A DNA stretch of 46,060 nucleotides from NCBI GenBank assembly GCA_948441945.1, contig CAOJQV010000010.1, positions 1-46,060 on the forward strand, written 5' to 3'. Shown one piece after another: positions 3,188 to 38,342 of the stretch. This stretch comes from an uncultured Clostridium sp. Lineage in GTDB: Bacteria; Bacillota; Clostridia; TANB77; CAG-508. Each line of letters opens with the position of its first letter. The first letter of the stretch is position 1. A program made the translations under genes and the position numbers. The notes beneath the pieces were generated by a model. The model was not told the DNA's origin and made no database searches. It was given only the letters and a program-made list of their open reading frames with translations.

Positions 3188-4075
3188 ATGCAAAAATATT
3201 TAGAAAAGTGTACAATATGTCCTCATGAATGTAAAGTGAATAGAAATAATGGTCAAGTAGGAAGATGCAAATCAAAAAATACTGTAAAAATTGCATTATA
3301 TTCAACTCATAATTTTGAAGAACCATGTATTAGTGGAAAAAAAGGCTCAGGAACAGTCTTTTTTTCAAATTGTAACTTGAATTGTGTATTTTGTCAGAAT
3401 TATGAAATTAGTCAGCAAGGAAAGGGAAAAGAAATATCAGCCCAAAGATTGGCAGAAATTTTTTTAGAACAACAGAAAAAAGATGTTGAAAATATAAATT
3501 TAGTTACGCCAACCAGTTATGTCCTACAAATTATTGAAGCAATTAAAATAGCAAGAAATAAAGGACTTAAGTTACCAATTGTTTATAACACAAATGGTTA
3601 TGAAAAAATAGAAACACTAAAGCTTTTAGAAGGATATATAGATATTTATTTACCTGATTTTAAATATTCTAATAACTTACTTGCAAAGCGTTTATCAAAG
3701 ATTGATAATTATTATGAAATTGCAACAGAAGCTTTAAAAGAAATGTATAGACAAGTAGAAAAACCAGTTTTTGATGAAAAAGGAATTATGCAAAAGGGTA
3801 TGATTATTAGACATTTAATTTTGCCAAATTATATTATAAATTCAAAAAGGGTTTTAAAATGGATAAATGACAATATGCCAGATGTTTATGTTAGCATAAT
3901 GGCACAATATTTTCCAACCTATAATGCAAAAGAGATTGATGATATTAATAGAAAACTAACTTTAAAAGAATATAAAGAAGTAGAAAATTTCTTATATACA
4001 TTGAATTTGGATAATGGTTTTATTCAAGAGTTAGGAGAACATGAAGAAGAATATGTGCCAAAATGGGAAAAATGA
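3188..4075 (+). CDS. PflX-like radical SAM protein (putative activating enzyme)
   Basis: 295 residues. The radical SAM cluster motif is CNLNCVFC (Cys 62, 66, 69). It is preceded by an N-terminal Cys set (8, 11, 15, 27) within CTICPHEC and GRCK, as in the PflX group of uncharacterised proteins related to pyruvate formate-lyase activating enzymes. Such enzymes cleave S-adenosylmethionine, and the canonical members install a glycyl radical on a partner. No glycyl radical enzyme is encoded in this window, so the substrate is open. The ATG at 3188 directly follows the upstream stop. The stop codon forms the first bases of the terminator hairpin. Confidence 0.85.
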   Translation: MQKYLEKCTICPHECKVNRNNGQVGRCKSKNTVKIALYSTHNFEEPCISGKKGSGTVFFSNCNLNCVFCQNYEISQQGKGKEISAQRLAEIFLEQQKKDVENINLVTPTSYVLQIIEAIKIARNKGLKLPIVYNTNGYEKIETLKLLEGYIDIYLPDFKYSNNLLAKRLSKIDNYYEIATEALKEMYRQVEKPVFDEKGIMQKGMIIRHLILPNYIINSKRVLKWINDNMPDVYVSIMAQYFPTYNAKEIDDINRKLTLKEYKEVENFLYTLNLDNGFIQELGEHEEEYVPKWEK

Positions 4076-4111
4076 GACACTTGGGACAGGCTAAAAGTGT
4101 CTCATATTTTT
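4073..4111 (+). terminator. intrinsic terminator with GGGACAGG loop (hairpin family D)
   Basis: A 9-bp stem (4073-4081 with 4096-4104) begins in the stop codon and is followed by TATTTTT. The loop GGGACAGGCTAAA recurs almost unchanged in the hairpin at 38093-38126. Confidence 0.85.
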
Positions 4112-17926: not shown

Positions 17927-18000
17927 AATAAATAATAAATAGAAAAGCTTGCAAAACTCAAGAAGATATGCTAAATTATAAGCATAGTAAAGGAGAAAAT

Positions 18001-18738
18001 ATGAAACAAACACAAGAAAAAGGGATTACTTTAATGGCATTAGTTATTATGGTAATAATCTTATTAATATTAACTTCAATAGGAGTCACATCAGGAACAA
18101 CAGCAATAAAAACATCACAATATACACAATTCAAAAATGAACTAAAAATCTTACAAACAAAAGTAAACGAATTAAATCAAGAAAATAAAACTGAGATTGG
18201 AAGACTGATAACCCAAGAGGAAAAGAACAGCCTTGAAAAACAAGACATATCCGATATAATTTATAAAGCAAAAAGTGATGAAGAAAAAATAAAAATTCAA
18301 CAAGGATTTAGATATTGCAATCAAGAAAGTATAAAGAATGAATTGAATTTAGAAAGCATAAAAAGAGAATATTTAATAAATGTGGAATATCGTTATATAA
18401 TTTACTATAAAGGCTATGAGTATAATAACAAAACTATATATATGATAAATCAACTTGACAATAGTATATATAATGTAGAATATCAAGAAAACAATAGTGC
18501 AACAGGAAGTTTTGAAGTACAATACACAACTGAGGGGAATAAGTGGAAAATAGAAATTGTAAATATAAATTATGATGGGAATATTGATAACTGGAATGTA
18601 AGATATAAACATATTGATGATGAAAAGTGGAAAGAAACAAATAATTTAAACTTTTATGTAACAAAAAAAGGAAAATATTCAATTGAAGTTAAACATGGAA
18701 ATGATATTAATTTAGGGATAAAAACTTTAATAATATAG
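18001..18738 (+). CDS. type IV pilin-like protein
   Basis: 245 residues from ATG 18001, chosen for AAAGGAG at 17991-17997. The N-terminus KGITLMALVIMVIILLILTS has the Gly-Ile cleavage site and hydrophobic helix of prepilin-type proteins. The Glu normally at position 5 after the cut is Ala here, a variant that may not assemble through the usual charge contact. The middle is helical and charged; the C-terminal about 90 residues (SFEVQYTTEGNKWKIEIVN, then WNVRYKHIDDEKW) look like a fibronectin/Ig-type beta domain. No peptidase or assembly ATPase is nearby. The TAG lies in the outer edge of the 133-bp palindrome. Confidence 0.72.
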   Translation: MKQTQEKGITLMALVIMVIILLILTSIGVTSGTTAIKTSQYTQFKNELKILQTKVNELNQENKTEIGRLITQEEKNSLEKQDISDIIYKAKSDEEKIKIQQGFRYCNQESIKNELNLESIKREYLINVEYRYIIYYKGYEYNNKTIYMINQLDNSIYNVEYQENNSATGSFEVQYTTEGNKWKIEIVNINYDGNIDNWNVRYKHIDDEKWKETNNLNFYVTKKGKYSIEVKHGNDINLGIKTLII

Positions 18739-18866
18739 GGATATGGGGACGTTCTTTTTCTCCCGTAAAACAGGGAATTAGGGACACTCCTTGATATTAA
18801 TTTTATCAAGGAGTGTCCCTAATTCCCTGCTTTACGGGAGAAAAAGAACGTCCCCATATCCCTATA
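18734..18866. repeat. 133-bp near-perfect palindrome between convergent genes
   Basis: Two 63-base arms (18734-18796 and 18804-18866) are reverse complements apart from one mismatch (18772 region, A opposite a C in the other arm), with a 7-base TTAATTT loop. The outermost TATAG of each arm supplies the TAG stop of both the pilin-like gene (+) and the CDF gene (-). The arms contain GGGGACGTTC, a T-run and TCTCCC, plus GGGACACTCC, which recall the loops of other hairpins in this window. It could serve as a bidirectional terminator, but its length and GC-rich blocks suggest an inserted REP-like element. Confidence 0.95.
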
Positions 18867-19725
18867 TTGGCTCTACATGTATAATTGTTTTATAAACATT
18901 ATCTAATAAGCTAACTGATTCTTCAATTGTATTTGCTAATGAATGACTATCAAAAGTACTTAAATTACCATCTAAACATATTGTAATAAAGACTATATGC
19001 TGAGCTCCAACAGGAGATGAGGAAATAGAGTCTATTTTTTTTACATCCTTAAAACTATTTATAATATCTAAAATTAAATCCCTAGTCTTTTCATCTATTG
19101 ATATATCCATCAAAACATTATAGCTTTCTAAAAGAATTGTAATACCAGTATACCCAATCCAAAGAGAAATACCAATACCAACAATACTATCAAACCAGTA
19201 AATTTGATAAGCAGATAAAATAATAGAAATAAGGGTAAAAGTAGTTAAAACACAATCATTTCTATGGTCTTTCATATTAGATTTTAATAAAATATTATTA
19301 TATTGCTTATAAATGTACTTTGTATATAGAAATAGAGCTAATTTAGTTATAATCGTAATTATACATACTAAAATTAGAAACCAAGAAAATTGTAGAGTAC
19401 TTCCTAAAATCAATGTACAAACAGCATCATAAAATAATTTTCCTGCTATAAATATCATAGAAATTGCAATAAACATAGAAAAAATATACTCTGCTTTTCC
19501 ATGCCCAAAATTATGGTCTTCATCATTTGGCTCACTTGCAATTCTATTACCAATAAAAGTCATAAGAGAAGCAAATATATCTCCAGCACTATTAAATGCG
19601 TCAGCTATCATAGCTTGACTTTTAAAAGTAAAACCAATAATTGCTTTAATAATAAGCAAAAATATATTGCCTATAACTCCTAATATTCCTGCTCTTTTTG
19701 TTAGTATAAATCTATCTTCATTCAT
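18862..19725 (-). CDS. CDF cation exporter, manganese-type site
   Basis: 287 residues; ATG 19725 is preferred over GTG 19731, which overlaps the AGGTG ribosome site. Six membrane segments are followed by a C-terminal cytoplasmic dimer domain (about 205-287) with HIVFITICLDGN. The membrane metal site reads Asn45-Ser-Ala-Gly-Asp49 in segment 2 and Asp153-His-Arg-Asn-Asp157 in segment 5. The Asn-Asp/Asp-Asp set is the one I recall for the Mn exporter MntE, whereas zinc carriers use His/Asp. The likely role is proton-driven Mn(II) efflux. The promoter lies in the foldback element upstream; the stop lies in the 133-bp palindrome. Confidence 0.88.
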   Translation of the reverse strand: MNEDRFILTKRAGILGVIGNIFLLIIKAIIGFTFKSQAMIADAFNSAGDIFASLMTFIGNRIASEPNDEDHNFGHGKAEYIFSMFIAISMIFIAGKLFYDAVCTLILGSTLQFSWFLILVCIITIITKLALFLYTKYIYKQYNNILLKSNMKDHRNDCVLTTFTLISIILSAYQIYWFDSIVGIGISLWIGYTGITILLESYNVLMDISIDEKTRDLILDIINSFKDVKKIDSISSSPVGAQHIVFITICLDGNLSTFDSHSLANTIEESVSLLDNVYKTIIHVEPI

Positions 19726-19764
19726 ATTCACACCTGTTTCATTATATGTAATTGTTTGAGAAAT

Positions 19765-19792
19765 ATTATACCACAGAAAAACTGTAAGTCAA
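19765..19792 (-). promoter_or_regulatory. promoter of the CDF exporter
   Basis: Read on the minus strand: TTGACT (19787-19792), a 16-bp spacer and TATAAT (19765-19770) with TGG before the -10. The -35 is at the left tip of the foldback element. Confidence 0.7.
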
Positions 19793-20122
19793 ATTGTATG
19801 ACAATTGCTTAAAATTTTTTAGATGTTGAGTGTCTACTTGTGCTTGTTCCTCTTTAGGTTCTAATCCTATTGGACGTTATTTTTTGTTCATTACATTTGA
19901 TTTAGAAGTTCTATGTTACGTATTAAGCCGAGTTGTGAAATAAAAAATGAATATAATATAACTTTTTTCCGTGAACATCCCCTATTGGCTAACTTAACAA
20001 ATTCTAAATCTCATTTCAATCAAGCAAAATAACATCTAATAGGATTAGAACCTAAAGAGGAACAGACATAAGTAGGCACTCCACATTTAAAAATTTTAAA
20101 CGATTGCTATATCAAATTGAAA
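19787..20122. mobile_element. foldback (MITE-like) element with about 95-bp inverted ends
   Basis: The left end (about 19787-19886) and right end (about 20022-20122) are imperfect inverted copies, best over GTTCCTCTTTAGGTTCTAAT, which is exact in both. Identity falls slowly outwards, and short indels are present. The middle (about 19887-20021) has no reading frame of note. The gene-free stretch 19732-20170 is otherwise only the two flanking promoters. Size, inverted ends and lack of coding capacity fit a non-autonomous transposable element; no target-site duplication could be identified with certainty. Confidence 0.7.
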
Positions 20123-20170: not shown

Positions 20171-22408
20171 ATGGTAGCAGAAGTAATAATAAATAGTACA
20201 GCAAAAAAATTAAATAGAACATTTGACTACAATATACCAGAAAATTTAGAAGATTTAGTATTAGTTGGTAGTAAGGTTTTGGTACCATTCGGCAGATTAA
20301 AAAATCTAGAAGAAGCATATATAGTAAAAATAAAGCAATCTTCAGAGTTTGAAATCAAAGACATTGCAAAAGTTGAAACAGAACTTACAGACAAACAAAT
20401 TGAACTTGCAAGTTGGATGGCAAATAAATATTTTTGTAATATTTCAGAATGTATTAAACTAATGCAAACACCAGGCACAAGAACTAAAAATGTTACTAAT
20501 AGAATTCAAGACAAAAAAATAAATCTAGTATGTTTAAAAAAAGAATTTGATGAAATTTTAATAGATATAGAAAACAAAAAGTTGAAATCAGAAAAACAAA
20601 TCAAAATACTAGAATTTTTAAAAGATAACTCAAAAGCTACTATTACTGAAATAGAAATGTTTACAGGTAGCTCCAGAACAATTGTTAATACACTAATAAA
20701 AAATGGATACTTGGAACTTAAAGAACAAAAAGTACAAAGAAATCCATTAAATAATAAGAAAATAGAAAATACACAAAATTTAAAACTTACAGATGAACAA
20801 GAAAAAGCATTTAATAAGATTGTAAAAACAATAGATAATAAAAAATATGAACAATTTTTATTATATGGTGTAACAGGGTCAGGGAAGACAGAAGTTTATT
20901 TACAGTTAATTAATAAAGTGTTAAATGAAAATAAATCAGCAATCGTATTAGTGCCAGAAATTTCACTAACTCCACAAATGCTAGATAGATTTATTTCACG
21001 CTTTGGAAAAGAACAAATAGCAGTTTTACATAGTAAATTATCAATTGGAGAAAGACATGATGAATGGGAAAGAATTAAAGAAGGACAAGCAAAAATTATA
21101 ATTGGAGCAAGGTCAGCGATTTTTGCCCCTGCACAAGACTTAGGAATAATTATTATAGACGAGGAACATGATAGCTCTTATAAATCGGAGGCAAGTCCTA
21201 GATATAATGCAAAAGAAGTAGCAGAAAAAATATCAAATGACTTACAGATACCATTATTGTTAGGAAGTGCTACACCAGATTTAAATACATTTTATAAAGC
21301 AAAAGAAATTAATCAAATTACATTACTAGAATTAACTAAAAGAGCAAATAAATCTAACTTGCCAAAAGTAGAGATAGTAGACTTAAAACAAGAATTAGCA
21401 AGTGGTAACAGAACAATGCTAAGTAGAGACCTTTATCAAGCAATTGAAGAAAATTTAAAAAATAAATTACAAACAATTTTATTTTTAAACAGAAGAGGAT
21501 ACTCAACATTTATAATGTGTAGAAATTGTGGATATACTGTAAAATGTAAAAACTGTAATATTAGTATGACATATCATAGTTACGAAAACAAATTAAAATG
21601 TCATTATTGTGGATATGAAGAAAAAGTAGTTAAAATCTGTCCAGAATGTGGAAGTGATAAGATAAGATATTTTGGAACAGGAACTCAAAAATTAGAACAA
21701 GAAATTTTAAAACAATTTCCAGAATCTAAAACAATTAGGATGGATGTTGATACTGTAACTAAAAAGAACTCTCACGAAGAGATTTTAAACAAATTTAAAA
21801 CAGAAAATATAGATATATTAATTGGAACACAAATGGTAGTAAAAGGACACCATTTTCCAAAAGTTACTCTAGTTGGAGTAATAGCAGCAGATGGCTCACT
21901 TAATATTGATGATTACAGAGCAACAGAGAGAACTTTTCAAATACTGACACAAGTAGCAGGAAGAGCAGGAAGAGAAAACTTGCCAGGAAAAGTAATAATC
22001 CAAAGTTATAATCCAGAAAACTATAGCATCCAAAATGCACAAAAACAGAATTATGAAGAATTTTATAAAATAGAAATACTATTACGAAAACAGTTGAAAT
22101 ATCCACCATTCTGCGATATAATAGTAATTGGATTTAATGGAACAAACGAAAAAGAAATTAAAGAAATATCTCAAAATGCTTATGAATTTGCACAAAACAA
22201 GTTAAATACATCTAAATTTAAAGTAATGAGACCAATGCCATCACCAATAGACAAAATACAAAATCGATTTAGATGGAGAATGATAATTAAAGGAAATATG
22301 ACGAAAGAAGCAAATGAGACTTTAAATAATTTACTTAAAAATATATATGATAAAGATTATAAAAATACCAAGATTACTATTGATGTAAATCCAAATAGTA
22401 TGATGTAA
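20171..22408 (+). CDS. priA: primosomal replication-restart helicase PriA
   Basis: 745 residues, normal length. An N-terminal 3'-DNA-binding domain is followed by a winged-helix part (about 140-190). The helicase core has Walker A GVTGSGKTE (about 233-241), the DEEH box (about 328-331) and QVAGRAGRENLPG. Eight zinc-binding Cys (about 450-500) are seen in CRNCGYTVKCKNCN, CHYCGYEE and CPECGSDK. It reloads the replisome at stalled forks. GAGGAGAGAAA precedes ATG 20171. def and fmt follow, a common order in Firmicutes (priA-def-fmt). A family A palindrome sits at the stop codon. Confidence 0.96.
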   Translation: MVAEVIINSTAKKLNRTFDYNIPENLEDLVLVGSKVLVPFGRLKNLEEAYIVKIKQSSEFEIKDIAKVETELTDKQIELASWMANKYFCNISECIKLMQTPGTRTKNVTNRIQDKKINLVCLKKEFDEILIDIENKKLKSEKQIKILEFLKDNSKATITEIEMFTGSSRTIVNTLIKNGYLELKEQKVQRNPLNNKKIENTQNLKLTDEQEKAFNKIVKTIDNKKYEQFLLYGVTGSGKTEVYLQLINKVLNENKSAIVLVPEISLTPQMLDRFISRFGKEQIAVLHSKLSIGERHDEWERIKEGQAKIIIGARSAIFAPAQDLGIIIIDEEHDSSYKSEASPRYNAKEVAEKISNDLQIPLLLGSATPDLNTFYKAKEINQITLLELTKRANKSNLPKVEIVDLKQELASGNRTMLSRDLYQAIEENLKNKLQTILFLNRRGYSTFIMCRNCGYTVKCKNCNISMTYHSYENKLKCHYCGYEEKVVKICPECGSDKIRYFGTGTQKLEQEILKQFPESKTIRMDVDTVTKKNSHEEILNKFKTENIDILIGTQMVVKGHHFPKVTLVGVIAADGSLNIDDYRATERTFQILTQVAGRAGRENLPGKVIIQSYNPENYSIQNAQKQNYEEFYKIEILLRKQLKYPPFCDIIVIGFNGTNEKEIKEISQNAYEFAQNKLNTSKFKVMRPMPSPIDKIQNRFRWRMIIKGNMTKEANETLNNLLKNIYDKDYKNTKITIDVNPNSMM

Positions 22409-22442
22409 ATGTCCCAAAAGGGACGTTTACCTGTGGGACATT
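22408..22442. repeat. palindrome with GGGACGTTTAC loop (family A, copy 1)
   Basis: ATGTCCCA (22409-22416) pairs with TGGGACAT (22434-22441). The sequence matches 38308-38342 except for the four bases CTGT/TTTT. It lies between priA and def without a T-tract, so it is more likely a repeat than a terminator. Confidence 0.85.
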
Positions 22443-29376: not shown

Positions 29377-31038
29377 ATGGAAGATATTGAGATTGCAAGA
29401 AATACGAAATTACAAAGGATAGAAGAAATTGCACATAAATTAAATATAAAGGATGAAGATTTAGAGTGCTACGGAAAATATAAAGCTAAGATTTCTAATT
29501 CAGTATTAGAAGAATTACAAACTAAGAAAAACGGAAAATTAGTTTTAGTAACAGCAATAAATCCTACACCATTAGGGGAAGGAAAGACAACAGTATCAAT
29601 TGCAATTGCAGACGGATTATCTAAAATTGGAGAAAAACCCATTTTAGCATTAAGAGAACCATCTTTAGGACCAGTATTTGGAATCAAAGGAGGAGCAACT
29701 GGTGGTGGAAAAGTACAAGTTGCACCTATGGAAGATATTAATTTACACTTTACAGGAGATATTCATGCTATGACATCTGCTAATAACCTATTAGCAAGTA
29801 TGATAGACAATCATATTTACTTTGGAAACGAGTTAGATTTTAAAAGAGTTACATGGAAAAGATGCGTAGACTTAAATGATAGACAACTAAGAGTAGTAGA
29901 TACAGGACTATCAGGAGAAAAAAATATTGTACCAAGAAAAGATGGATTTGATATAACAGTTGCATCTGAAATTATGGCAATACTATGCTTATCAGAAAAC
30001 ATAGATGATTTAAAAACAAAATTAGGGAACATAGTTATTGGATATAATTCAAAAGAAGAACCAATATATGCAAAAGACTTAAAAGCAGAAGGAGCAATGA
30101 CAGTTCTTCTAAAAGATGCTATAAAGCCAAATATAGTACAAACATTAGAACATACACCAGCAATTCTTCATGGAGGACCATTTGCAAATATTGCTCATGG
30201 ATGCAATAGTATTATAGCAACTAAAATGGCAATGAAATTAGCAGACTATGTAATTACAGAAGCAGGATTTGGAGCAGACTTAGGAGCAGAAAAATTCTTA
30301 AATGTTAAATGTAGAAAAGCAGGAATAAAACCAGATGCAGTAGTAATTGTAGCAACAATTAAAGCACTAAAATATCATGGAGGAATTGAAAAAGATAAAA
30401 TACAAGAAGAAAATTTAGAAGGCTTAAAAAATGGTATGAGCAACTTGTATCAACATATAAGAAATATAAAAGAAAAATTTGGACTAAATGTAATAGTTGC
30501 AATTAATAGATATAACACAGATACAGTTAATGAAATAGAATTTATACAAAAAGAACTAGAAAATAAAAATATAGAAGTAAGTCTAGTAGAAGGATGGGCA
30601 AAAGGTGGAGAAGGTGCTATAGACATAGCACAAAAACTAACTAAATTAGTAAATAAAGAAGAAAACTTTAAATTTATTTACGAAGATAACGATAATATTC
30701 GAACAAAAATAGAAAAAGTAGCAAAAGAAATATATGGAGCAACAGGAGTACAACTATCAGAAGAAGCAGAAAAAGAAATCAAAAAAATCGAAAAGTTAGG
30801 GTACAAAAATCTACCAGTATGTATTGCAAAAACACAATATTCATTTTCAGATGATGCAAAAAATCTAGAATGTAAAGAACCATTTAAAATAACTATTAGA
30901 GAAGTTAACTTAAAAGCAGGAGCAGGATTTGTAGTAGCAATAGCAGGAAAAATAATGACAATGCCAGGGCTTCCAAGAGTACCAGCAGCAGAGAATATAG
31001 ATATTGACGAAAATGGTAATGTAGAAGGAATATTTTAA
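29377..31038 (+). CDS. fhs: formate-tetrahydrofolate ligase
   Basis: Makes 10-formyl-tetrahydrofolate from formate, ATP and tetrahydrofolate. 553 residues, full length. Landmarks are the P-loop TPLGEGKTT (about 64-72), REPSLGPVFGIKGGATGGG, the FTGDIHAMTSANNLL segment and the C-terminal AGAGFVVAIAGKIMTMPGLP. AGGAGGTAG precedes ATG 29377. Its product feeds Fmt and purine synthesis, and after reduction ThyX. It closes the long run from asp23 with a family B terminator. Confidence 0.97.
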   Translation: MEDIEIARNTKLQRIEEIAHKLNIKDEDLECYGKYKAKISNSVLEELQTKKNGKLVLVTAINPTPLGEGKTTVSIAIADGLSKIGEKPILALREPSLGPVFGIKGGATGGGKVQVAPMEDINLHFTGDIHAMTSANNLLASMIDNHIYFGNELDFKRVTWKRCVDLNDRQLRVVDTGLSGEKNIVPRKDGFDITVASEIMAILCLSENIDDLKTKLGNIVIGYNSKEEPIYAKDLKAEGAMTVLLKDAIKPNIVQTLEHTPAILHGGPFANIAHGCNSIIATKMAMKLADYVITEAGFGADLGAEKFLNVKCRKAGIKPDAVVIVATIKALKYHGGIEKDKIQEENLEGLKNGMSNLYQHIRNIKEKFGLNVIVAINRYNTDTVNEIEFIQKELENKNIEVSLVEGWAKGGEGAIDIAQKLTKLVNKEENFKFIYEDNDNIRTKIEKVAKEIYGATGVQLSEEAEKEIKKIEKLGYKNLPVCIAKTQYSFSDDAKNLECKEPFKITIREVNLKAGAGFVVAIAGKIMTMPGLPRVPAAENIDIDENGNVEGIF

Positions 31039-31046
31039 ATAAGAAG

Positions 31047-31086
31047 AGTGTGACAAAGGGGGCGTCCCTTATTGTCACACTTTTTA
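31047..31086 (+). terminator. fhs terminator (hairpin family B, copy 2)
   Basis: AGTGTGACAA (31047-31056) pairs with TTGTCACACT (31072-31081) around GGGGGCGTCCC and is followed by TTTTT. Confidence 0.88.
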
Positions 31087-31308: not shown

Positions 31309-32040
31309 ATGAAAATAAAAAAAATACTAGCAATTCAGATAACATTAATAATGTTAATAGATCTGTTTTTGCCATATTTAATGTTACTTACAAAATCGTA
31401 TAATAAAACATTAATTGTACCAAATCCAACAACAATTATAGAACCAATTACAGAAGAGTGGGCTAATGGAAAATTGAAGCCAAATAAAATACATAATAAT
31501 GTTACAAGTATAATAATAAAAACACCTACAAAAACAACATATATGCATGGAGAAGAATTAGATTTAGCAGGTGGAACAATTACCATAAATTATGATAATG
31601 GAGTATCAAATACAGTAATAATCACAAAAGATATGATAACAGAAGTAGATGGAACAAAATCTGTAAATATGAGACCAAATGAATTTGAATATGATAGTAT
31701 AACACATAGATTTTCAAAAACAGTACAGATAACTTATACAGATGCAAGTGGAGTAACAGTTACAAAACCTTATACATTTGATATAATAAATGATATAAAA
31801 TCAATAAGTGTATATGGTGATAAGCATAAGATAATATATAATGTAAAAGAACCACTAGACATAATGAATTTAGAAATTTTAGTAAGAAGAGCAATAGGAA
31901 CATCAATAGTAGCTGTTACAGACCCAAGTATGATAAGTGGATTTAAAAATGATAAAAGCTATGAAGATTTACCATTAACAATAACTTATAGTGAAAATGG
32001 TATATACAGAAAATGTCATTATACTACAAATGTAATGTAA
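31309..32040 (+). CDS. secreted protein with Big_3-type Ig-like domain
   Basis: 243 residues. An N-terminal hydrophobic signal or anchor (about 6-28) is followed by a bacterial Ig-like domain (about 60-150) reading IIIKTPTKTTYMHGEELDLA then GGTITINYDNGVS. The same module, with PTKT-Y and LSGG, occurs five times in the large protein starting at 43635. A second, weaker Ig-like half follows (about 160-243). No sorting signal is visible. AGAGGAGATAAGT precedes ATG 31309. Single-gene unit, probably a surface protein. Confidence 0.75.
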   Translation: MKIKKILAIQITLIMLIDLFLPYLMLLTKSYNKTLIVPNPTTIIEPITEEWANGKLKPNKIHNNVTSIIIKTPTKTTYMHGEELDLAGGTITINYDNGVSNTVIITKDMITEVDGTKSVNMRPNEFEYDSITHRFSKTVQITYTDASGVTVTKPYTFDIINDIKSISVYGDKHKIIYNVKEPLDIMNLEILVRRAIGTSIVAVTDPSMISGFKNDKSYEDLPLTITYSENGIYRKCHYTTNVM

Positions 32041-32045
32041 CAAAA

Positions 32046-32083
32046 TATGTGACAAAAGGGTCGTTCCTTTTTGTCACATTAAT
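32046..32083 (+). terminator. terminator-like hairpin (family B, copy 3)
   Basis: ATGTGACAAAAGG pairs with CCTTTTTGTCACAT around GTCGTT-type bases. The tail TAATTG lacks a T-run, so termination may be weak and gpr could be read through. Confidence 0.7.
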
Positions 32084-38078: not shown

Positions 38079-38092
38079 TAGTTTATATCTTT

Positions 38093-38126
38093 GAGACAAG
38101 TGGGACAGGTTAAATTTGTCTCGTGA
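38093..38126 (+). terminator. terminator with GGGACAGG loop (hairpin family D, copy 2)
   Basis: GAGACAA (38093-38099) pairs with TTGTCTC (38116-38122) around GTGGGACAGGTTAAAT and is followed by GTGATTTT. The loop matches that at 4073-4111. The gene-free stretch 38079-38404 also holds a TGTCGAA (38130-38136), two promoters and a family A palindrome. Confidence 0.75.
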
Positions 38127-38307: not shown

Positions 38308-38342
38308 AATGTCCCAAAAGGGACGTTTACTTTTGGGACATT
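38308..38342. repeat. palindrome with GGGACGTTTAC loop (family A, copy 2)
   Basis: ATGTCCCA pairs with TGGGACAT; near-identical to 22408-22442. It contains an 11-codon frame (38309-38344) created by the palindrome itself, judged not to be a gene. Confidence 0.85.

Follow-up and report, generated by a model that had tools for sequence, protein, structure and literature searches.

A palindrome between two convergent genes is one copy of a small repeated element, probably mobilized by a transposase encoded at another locus of this Clostridia genome

The window (the whole 46,060-nt stretch of DNA analyzed here) belongs to a draft Clostridia genome, G000, which comprises 1,409,507 bases (1.41 Mb) in 56 contigs and is 79.5% complete. 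Two genes converge in it on a long palindrome: a pilin-like gene of 256 aa on the + strand (17968–18738), and a CDF cation efflux gene of 289 aa on the - strand (18862–19731; Pfam Cation_efflux, NCBIfam CDF). The pilin-like protein has weak, sub-cutoff prepilin matches in NCBIfam only, and none in Pfam. The inverted repeat between the genes consists of two 65-nt arms (18732–18796 on the + strand and 18804–18868 on the - strand) that are 98% complementary and lie 7 nt apart, with the loop at 18797–18803; the near-perfect palindrome at 18734–18866 given in the preliminary description was borne out and sits within these arms. Alignment with other copies places the border of the element at GGGA...TCCC, giving a core of 125 bp (18738–18862), and each measured arm includes 6 nt outside that core (AATATA on the left, TATATT on the right). 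Both arms carry an outer motif, GGGACGTTC (18746–18754, + strand, and 18846–18854, - strand), and an inner motif, GGGACACTC (18781–18789, + strand, and 18811–18819, - strand).

As single-stranded DNA the palindrome folds at -74.6 kcal/mol, compared with -12.85 ± 2.43 for 200 dinucleotide shuffles, none of which was as stable (0/200). No other inverted repeat in the window is as long at such a match. An inverted repeat upstream of a 745-aa ORF (19809–19910 and 19999–20100) is longer, at 102 nt, but only 79% complementary, with no Rfam match above gathering score. A terminator-like match (a GC-rich stem followed by a T-run) was found at the palindrome once on the - strand and not on the + strand. 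At 18000–19800, Rfam gave only matches below gathering score (microRNA models and rli51), and in the whole window that score was reached by three tRNAs only; an ARAGORN tRNA-Cys call at 31991–32078 (anticodon aca), absent from Rfam at gathering score, is doubtful. A search of the plasmid collection with the palindrome locus returned no match.

The outer TATAG on each side forms the TAG of the pilin-like gene (18736–18738, + strand) and of the CDF gene (18862–18864, - strand), so that both stop codons straddle the element border. Because that border lies at GGGA/TCCC in the alignment, the core supplies only the third base of each TAG (the G at 18738 and the G at 18862, respectively) and not whole codons. 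The earlier claim that the palindrome supplies the stop codons of both genes is accordingly right in that both TAGs are completed by it, but has to be narrowed to their final G.

BLAST of the region against G000 returned many inverted matches, mostly 70–85% identical. The pattern GGGACGTTCNTTNNNTCCC, allowing up to two mismatches, matched 29 + 27 times in the genome (backward control, 0), and these matches group into 33 sites; the search of the genome with the arm, suggested in the preliminary description, thus disposes of the idea that the palindrome is present only here. The 23 paired copies examined vary in size: twelve (113–141 bp) resemble the window copy, two are minimal (62 bp), one is decayed (150 bp), two measure 177–186 bp, five measure 275–282 bp and have an extra internal hairpin (judged by eye), and one, of 1,008 bp, contains a RAYT gene. 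The family also includes single arms. Six of the 33 sites are found at the end of a contig, and with copies so placed in draft genomes the family is undercounted. One minimal palindrome (C4:51390; L125:1483–1544) is a mosaic of two families, in which the outer end of another RAYT's repeat, that of C7 (TGCCAAAGGGGACG), is joined to an inner TTTTTATCCCT type. At the start of contig C30, positions 1–45 (L038) adjoin an element arm and are presumably Illumina adapter sequence.

G000 encodes four Y1_Tnp genes (Pfam). One of them, the 255-aa C29 RAYT, lies between arms of this same family, which measure 76 nt, are 86% complementary, and enclose 864 nt; a search for Y1/RAYT genes had been proposed in the preliminary description. 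Of 194 genomes in the genus, 21 contain a homologue scoring >200 bits (hereafter the RAYT clade). In G004 the homologue is bracketed by related arms (54 nt, 93%, 1,197 nt apart), with a ferredoxin gene and another partial arm also in the interior; in G172, too, the RAYT gene lies between arms. A script detected flanking repeats of at least 28 nt at 11 of the 21 clade loci. The H-x-H and Y---NP motifs are invariant in the 13 RAYTs aligned, and all 13 match NCBIfam REP_Tyr_transpos (E ≤ 1e-3). The C29 protein itself scores 65.9 bits against that model, below the cut-off of 80, which we counted against our preferred explanation. A profile found one solved structure, TnpArep 4er8 (E 9e-4). For the C-terminal helix-turn-helix of TIRYT subclass 2.1, there was a sub-cutoff HTH_19 match in the G004 protein only, at 17.4 bits (cut-off 30.2), with none in the C29 protein. 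At 17 of the 21 clade loci, that of C29 included, the RAYT gene adjoins vorA and/or a ferredoxin gene, and the RAYT therefore looks anchored. No relative was confirmed when the contig collection was scanned with the C29 RAYT.

The other three RAYTs of G000 have repeats of their own. Two of these repeat families are dispersed as well (pattern searches with up to three mismatches), with 28 + 26 matches (controls, 0 and 1) and 23 + 22 matches (controls, 0 and 0); in the former the sites are fewer than the matches, because the motif is partly self-complementary. Repeats resembling those of the other three RAYTs also occur in the window. Hairpins of the C16-RAYT type (TGAGACA...TGTCTC) lie at 4073–4104 and 38092–38123, the second recognized by eye, and the first three bases of the one at 4073 are the TGA stop of ORF 3188–4075. 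Hairpins like TGTCCCAAAAGGGACGTTTAC.TGTGGGACA, the type that flanks the C9 RAYT, lie at 22410–22440 and 38310–38340, the former starting one base past the TAA of ORF 20171–22408. A C7-RAYT-type repeat (AGTGTGACAA...TTGTCACACT) at 31047–31081 follows ORF 29377–31038 and is itself followed by a T-run, in a terminator-like arrangement.

Across the genus, the arm was matched with at most one mismatch in 49 of 194 genomes and not in the other 145 (backward control: single matches in five genomes). Matches are very uneven in number, with for example 126 in G081, 115 in G001, 86 in G008, and 58, 57, and 56 in G195, G077, and G000, respectively. Four or more matches were found in 16 of the 21 genomes with a clade RAYT vs. 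8 of the 173 without (Fisher p 1e-13, a value that overstates the association, since the 200-bit line was set at a gap after the list had been seen and the species are related). The exceptions run both ways: G008 (86 matches), G193 (23), and G142 (11) are rich in matches without a clade RAYT, whereas G018, G021, and G140 have a clade RAYT and no matches; the pattern does not pick up the variant arms of these three (GGGACGCCC, GGGACGGTCC). A scan of the contig collection with the VorA protein confirmed 575 loci, the best 80 of which come from entries labeled Clostridia, Clostridium, Clostridiales, and Clostridiaceae. The closest among these 80 is L258, from goat colon (94%), and a RAYT match (E ≤ 1e-10) was present in the DNA examined at six of them.

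Among 20 loci with pilin matches, the same convergent pilin-CDF pair was found in six relatives (G165, G019, G111, G180, G087, and G172). None of the six has the palindrome, and each has a short hairpin in its place (by eye); in G172 the family is nonetheless present elsewhere in the genome. Conservation in all relatives with no empty site had been named as a result that would speak against insertion, and in these six relatives the palindrome is absent. Together with the 33 sites and the bracketed RAYT, they support the original suggestion of a REP/BIME-like inserted element tied to Y1/RAYT transposases. The closest relative at the locus is G165 (pilin 72% and CDF 82% identical to those of the window). 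Agreement between the two runs up to AACTTTAATAAT and resumes at ATTGG. In G165 the 37 nt in between contain the pilin stop with the three codons before it, the hairpin AATCGGTCAAAATTGACCGATT, and the CDF stop; in their place the window has the element, flanked by ATA/TAT. The hairpin of the G165 type was presumably the former terminator. It had also been proposed that the insertion redefined the ends of both proteins. This holds for the pilin, which ends three residues earlier than its counterpart in the nearest relative (TLII* vs. TLIIQEE*), but not for the CDF protein, whose residues are unchanged (..HVEPI*, as in G019 and G165, where the stop is TAA). The relatives thus show the element standing in place of a host hairpin and three codons. 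In a separate set of 16 CDF loci from the same genus, covering up to 140 bases of each and with G019 common to both sets, this position is occupied in G010 by another palindrome, with GGGGACGTTTC, in G018 by a GAGACAGTT-type hairpin, and in G008 by a GGGACGTTCCTTAAATCCC block at a contig end; no block of these three types was seen in the bases covered for the other 13.

Gene ends were counted in six genomes for 68 paired copies, from fetched matches favoring pairs and with automatic gene calls of at least 60 aa. The flanking genes are tandem at 33 copies, convergent at 29, divergent at 5, and unknown at 1. Ninety-two gene ends face these copies, and 53 of them stop inside the element or on its border (25/34 in G000, 7/12 in G172, 6/10 in G081, 5/10 in G195, 8/17 in G077, and 2/9 in G105); a further 12 stop at 0–5 nt, 9 at 6–20 nt, and 18 farther away. 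Stop capture at gene ends is general for the family and not a property of the window alone. Stops recur at offsets of -1 (TA|G), -8/-9, and -22, and a few far offsets (e.g., -101) may come from spurious ORFs. Of the 34 facing ends in G000, 22 use TAG as their stop, compared with 5 of the 41 other ORFs in the window.

Individual junctions differ. At the C2 locus, the G172 version of the gene terminates in AATCCATAA and the element lies 9 nt beyond, and in G000 the element directly follows AATCCA and adds eleven codons before a TAG. Several gene ends have the element in both of these genomes, but in a different variant and with a different junction, which, on the sequences compared, points to turnover or repeated insertion at preferred gene ends rather than one simple event. 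The vorA gene ends TN|RD*, with AGGGATTAG or AGGGATTAA, at 10 of the 15 clade loci with a readable end; among the best 80 of the 575 VorA loci, most of which are without a RAYT match, many vorA genes end TNKE* or TNK*. At L258 and L292, a short hairpin comes after the TNRD* end of vorA, and the DNA examined contains no RAYT match; these ends are perhaps scars left by the loss of a RAYT element. The palindrome continues for 4 nt or more into the outer flanks of 6/23 copies in G000 (null 2.4%), 4/7 in G172 (11.9%), 1/7 in G081 (0), 1/10 in G195 (4.4%), 1/11 in G077 (4.5%), and 0/9 in G105 (4.2%), and some of the runs in G000 may reflect a preference for ATA or the element ends themselves. We considered whether the element generally inserts into the loop of host terminators, and did not retain this rule. 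Group IIC introns insert near terminators. TA is modestly favored at the junction (13 of 42 flanks in G000 that are GGG-started vs. 11.6% in the window).

The two arms of a copy resemble each other more than they resemble the arms of other copies. For 21 paired copies in G000, within-copy identity averaged 97.2%, compared with 81.6% between copies (210 pairs, maximum 94.5%); the low within-copy values are those of the decayed copy (73%) and the RAYT-bearing copy (91%). In 20 of these copies, 98.4% of positions pair, vs. a mean of 82.0% when right arms were shuffled among copies (maximum of 1000 shuffles, 86.9%), and double changes fill 135 cells vs. a shuffled mean of 36.9 (maximum 63). The decayed copy (C28:17225) was included in the identity comparison and excluded from the pairing test, and the 12 of the 33 sites without two measurable arms were excluded from both. 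Similar values were obtained elsewhere: five short-spacer pairs in G172 are 98–100% identical (one cut by a contig end), with the RAYT-bearing pair at 82% and a decayed pair at 75%, and seven arm pairs in G081 are 93–98% identical. At three copies (G172 L186 and L187, and G000 C4:51390) the arm match carries on into the flanks, for 10 nt to ≥15 nt.

Template switching is described as perfecting quasipalindromes in E. coli (PMC7202029), and compensatory changes are described across REPIN hairpins (PMC3116915); since each has precedent in these sources, both template switching and selection for pairing could account for the arm identity. A version in which the element is RAYT-linked and the arms are kept alike by RNA or DNA pairing selection alone, without template switching or copying during transposition, is a tentative possibility that deserves weight. 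The excess of double changes (135 vs. about 37) agrees with it, as do the compensatory changes reported for REPINs (PMC3116915). Two observations suggest otherwise without deciding the matter, namely that arm agreement enters host flanks in the three copies just named, and that agreement is lower (91% and 82%) in RAYT-bearing copies, whose arms are separated by ~0.9 kb. Near-perfect arms in copies that have diverged strongly from one another offer a natural test between template-switch correction and pairing selection.

We favor, with a probability of roughly 0.8, a non-autonomous, REPIN-like element of two inverted arms of ~58 nt, whose likely partner is the C29 RAYT, a TnpA_REP-type HUH transposase. 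That a host-evolved bidirectional terminator or 3'-end hairpin, never mobile, arose at this convergent pair would fit a palindrome that lies between convergent genes, abuts both stops, and has a terminator-like match on the - strand, but it is very improbable given that copies of its arm occupy 33 sites and bracket a transposase gene, and that the relatives have unrelated short hairpins at the locus. Inverted repeats with a short interior or none are the plan of a MITE as well, and such an element of an unrelated (e.g., DDE) transposon might surround a RAYT by chance; we give this little credence, because the RAYT gene itself lies between arms in three genomes (G000, G172, and G004) and arm matches track the RAYT clade. 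An assembly artefact is scarcely credible: G000 is a draft in 56 contigs with 6 of 33 family sites at contig ends, yet the family occurs in other genomes with different arms and junctions, the two sides of the window palindrome enter different genes, and its arms carry a mismatch.

We infer movement by the RAYT, a terminator function, and the cause of the arm identity from sequence patterns. For the REPIN-like element, the C29 RAYT would recognize the arm as a single-stranded hairpin and place copies at gene 3' ends, and the insertion, or a later deletion, would take out the old terminator. Stops borne by the arm (TA|G at the border, one ~9 nt in, and TAA ~22 nt in) would make such landings tolerable, and the hairpin of the element could then act as a shared transcript end, its arms being kept alike by fold-back template switching, by pairing selection, or by both. 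More speculatively, and on balance unlikely, the elements may be portable gene-end cassettes that seek or replace terminator hairpins, bring stops near each end, and have their second arm remade by fold-back copying. If so, each copy would stay a near-perfect palindrome while copies diverge, and several RAYT families per genome would be rewriting many gene 3' ends.

Among known systems, REPINs and TIRtrons come closest; the window element is REPIN-like in its working and nearest to the TIRtron class, to which its arms, as long terminal repeats, bring it closer than to classical REPs. RAYT genes with flanking inverted REPs are known (PMC2817692), and REPINs are REP doublets that form hairpins (PMC3116915). 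As described for Pseudomonas fluorescens SBW25, REPINs share with the family two inverted units that make one hairpin, dispersal, a cognate RAYT beside copies, and compensatory changes; the family differs in its ~58-nt arms with few bases between them, its Clostridia host, its placement at stop codons where an old hairpin was replaced, and the lack of a conserved GT[AG]G (PMC3116915). At the hairpin foot, GT[AG]G is not conserved in the 55-nt G000 arms, and GTGG occurs only in the variant inner end of the C2 copy. Di Nocera et al. (PMC3733652) report that REPs are located chiefly between ORFs in tandem or convergent arrangement, and that the termini of GTAG REPs often supply flanking TAG stops; the family shares both features, but the foot of its arm carries no conserved GT[AG]G, and it also provides stops deeper in the arm. 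IS200/IS605 elements belong to the same HUH single-tyrosine transposase family (Pfam Y1_Tnp), from which the clade differs in the Y---NP motif, as stated for class 2 (PMC6006769), and in its shared position in 17 of 21 genomes.

TIRYTs are RAYT-like genes within long TIRs, whose TIR families are moderately abundant and include dimers (Di Nocera et al., PMC3733652). With these the C29 system shares the RAYT-like gene in long TIRs and the TIR copies and dimers elsewhere; its blocks resemble GGGGWSAS (PMC3733652, PMC6006769). GGGGWSAS itself is matched exactly, as GGGGACAC, in some copies, with AGGGACAC in the window and the RAYT-flanking arms. Relative to the published blocks, the inner one here is AGGGACAC or GGGGACAC and the outer one, GGGGACGT, is an imperfect match; relative to "moderately abundant" families, this one may be larger (>100 arm matches in some relatives), and its copies are near-perfect palindromes (PMC3733652, PMC6006769). 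In the literature covered, which included few subscription journals, we found neither a replaced terminator nor such within-copy arm agreement. REP termini that give TAG stops are already in print (PMC3733652), and what is distinctive here, against the sources available, is the replaced hairpin and the homogenization of the arms. According to Quentin et al. (PMC6006769), most TIRYTs fall in subclass 2.1, next to which they identified no REP-like sequences; the present family links a TIRYT-like transposase to a dispersed population of hairpins in Clostridia.
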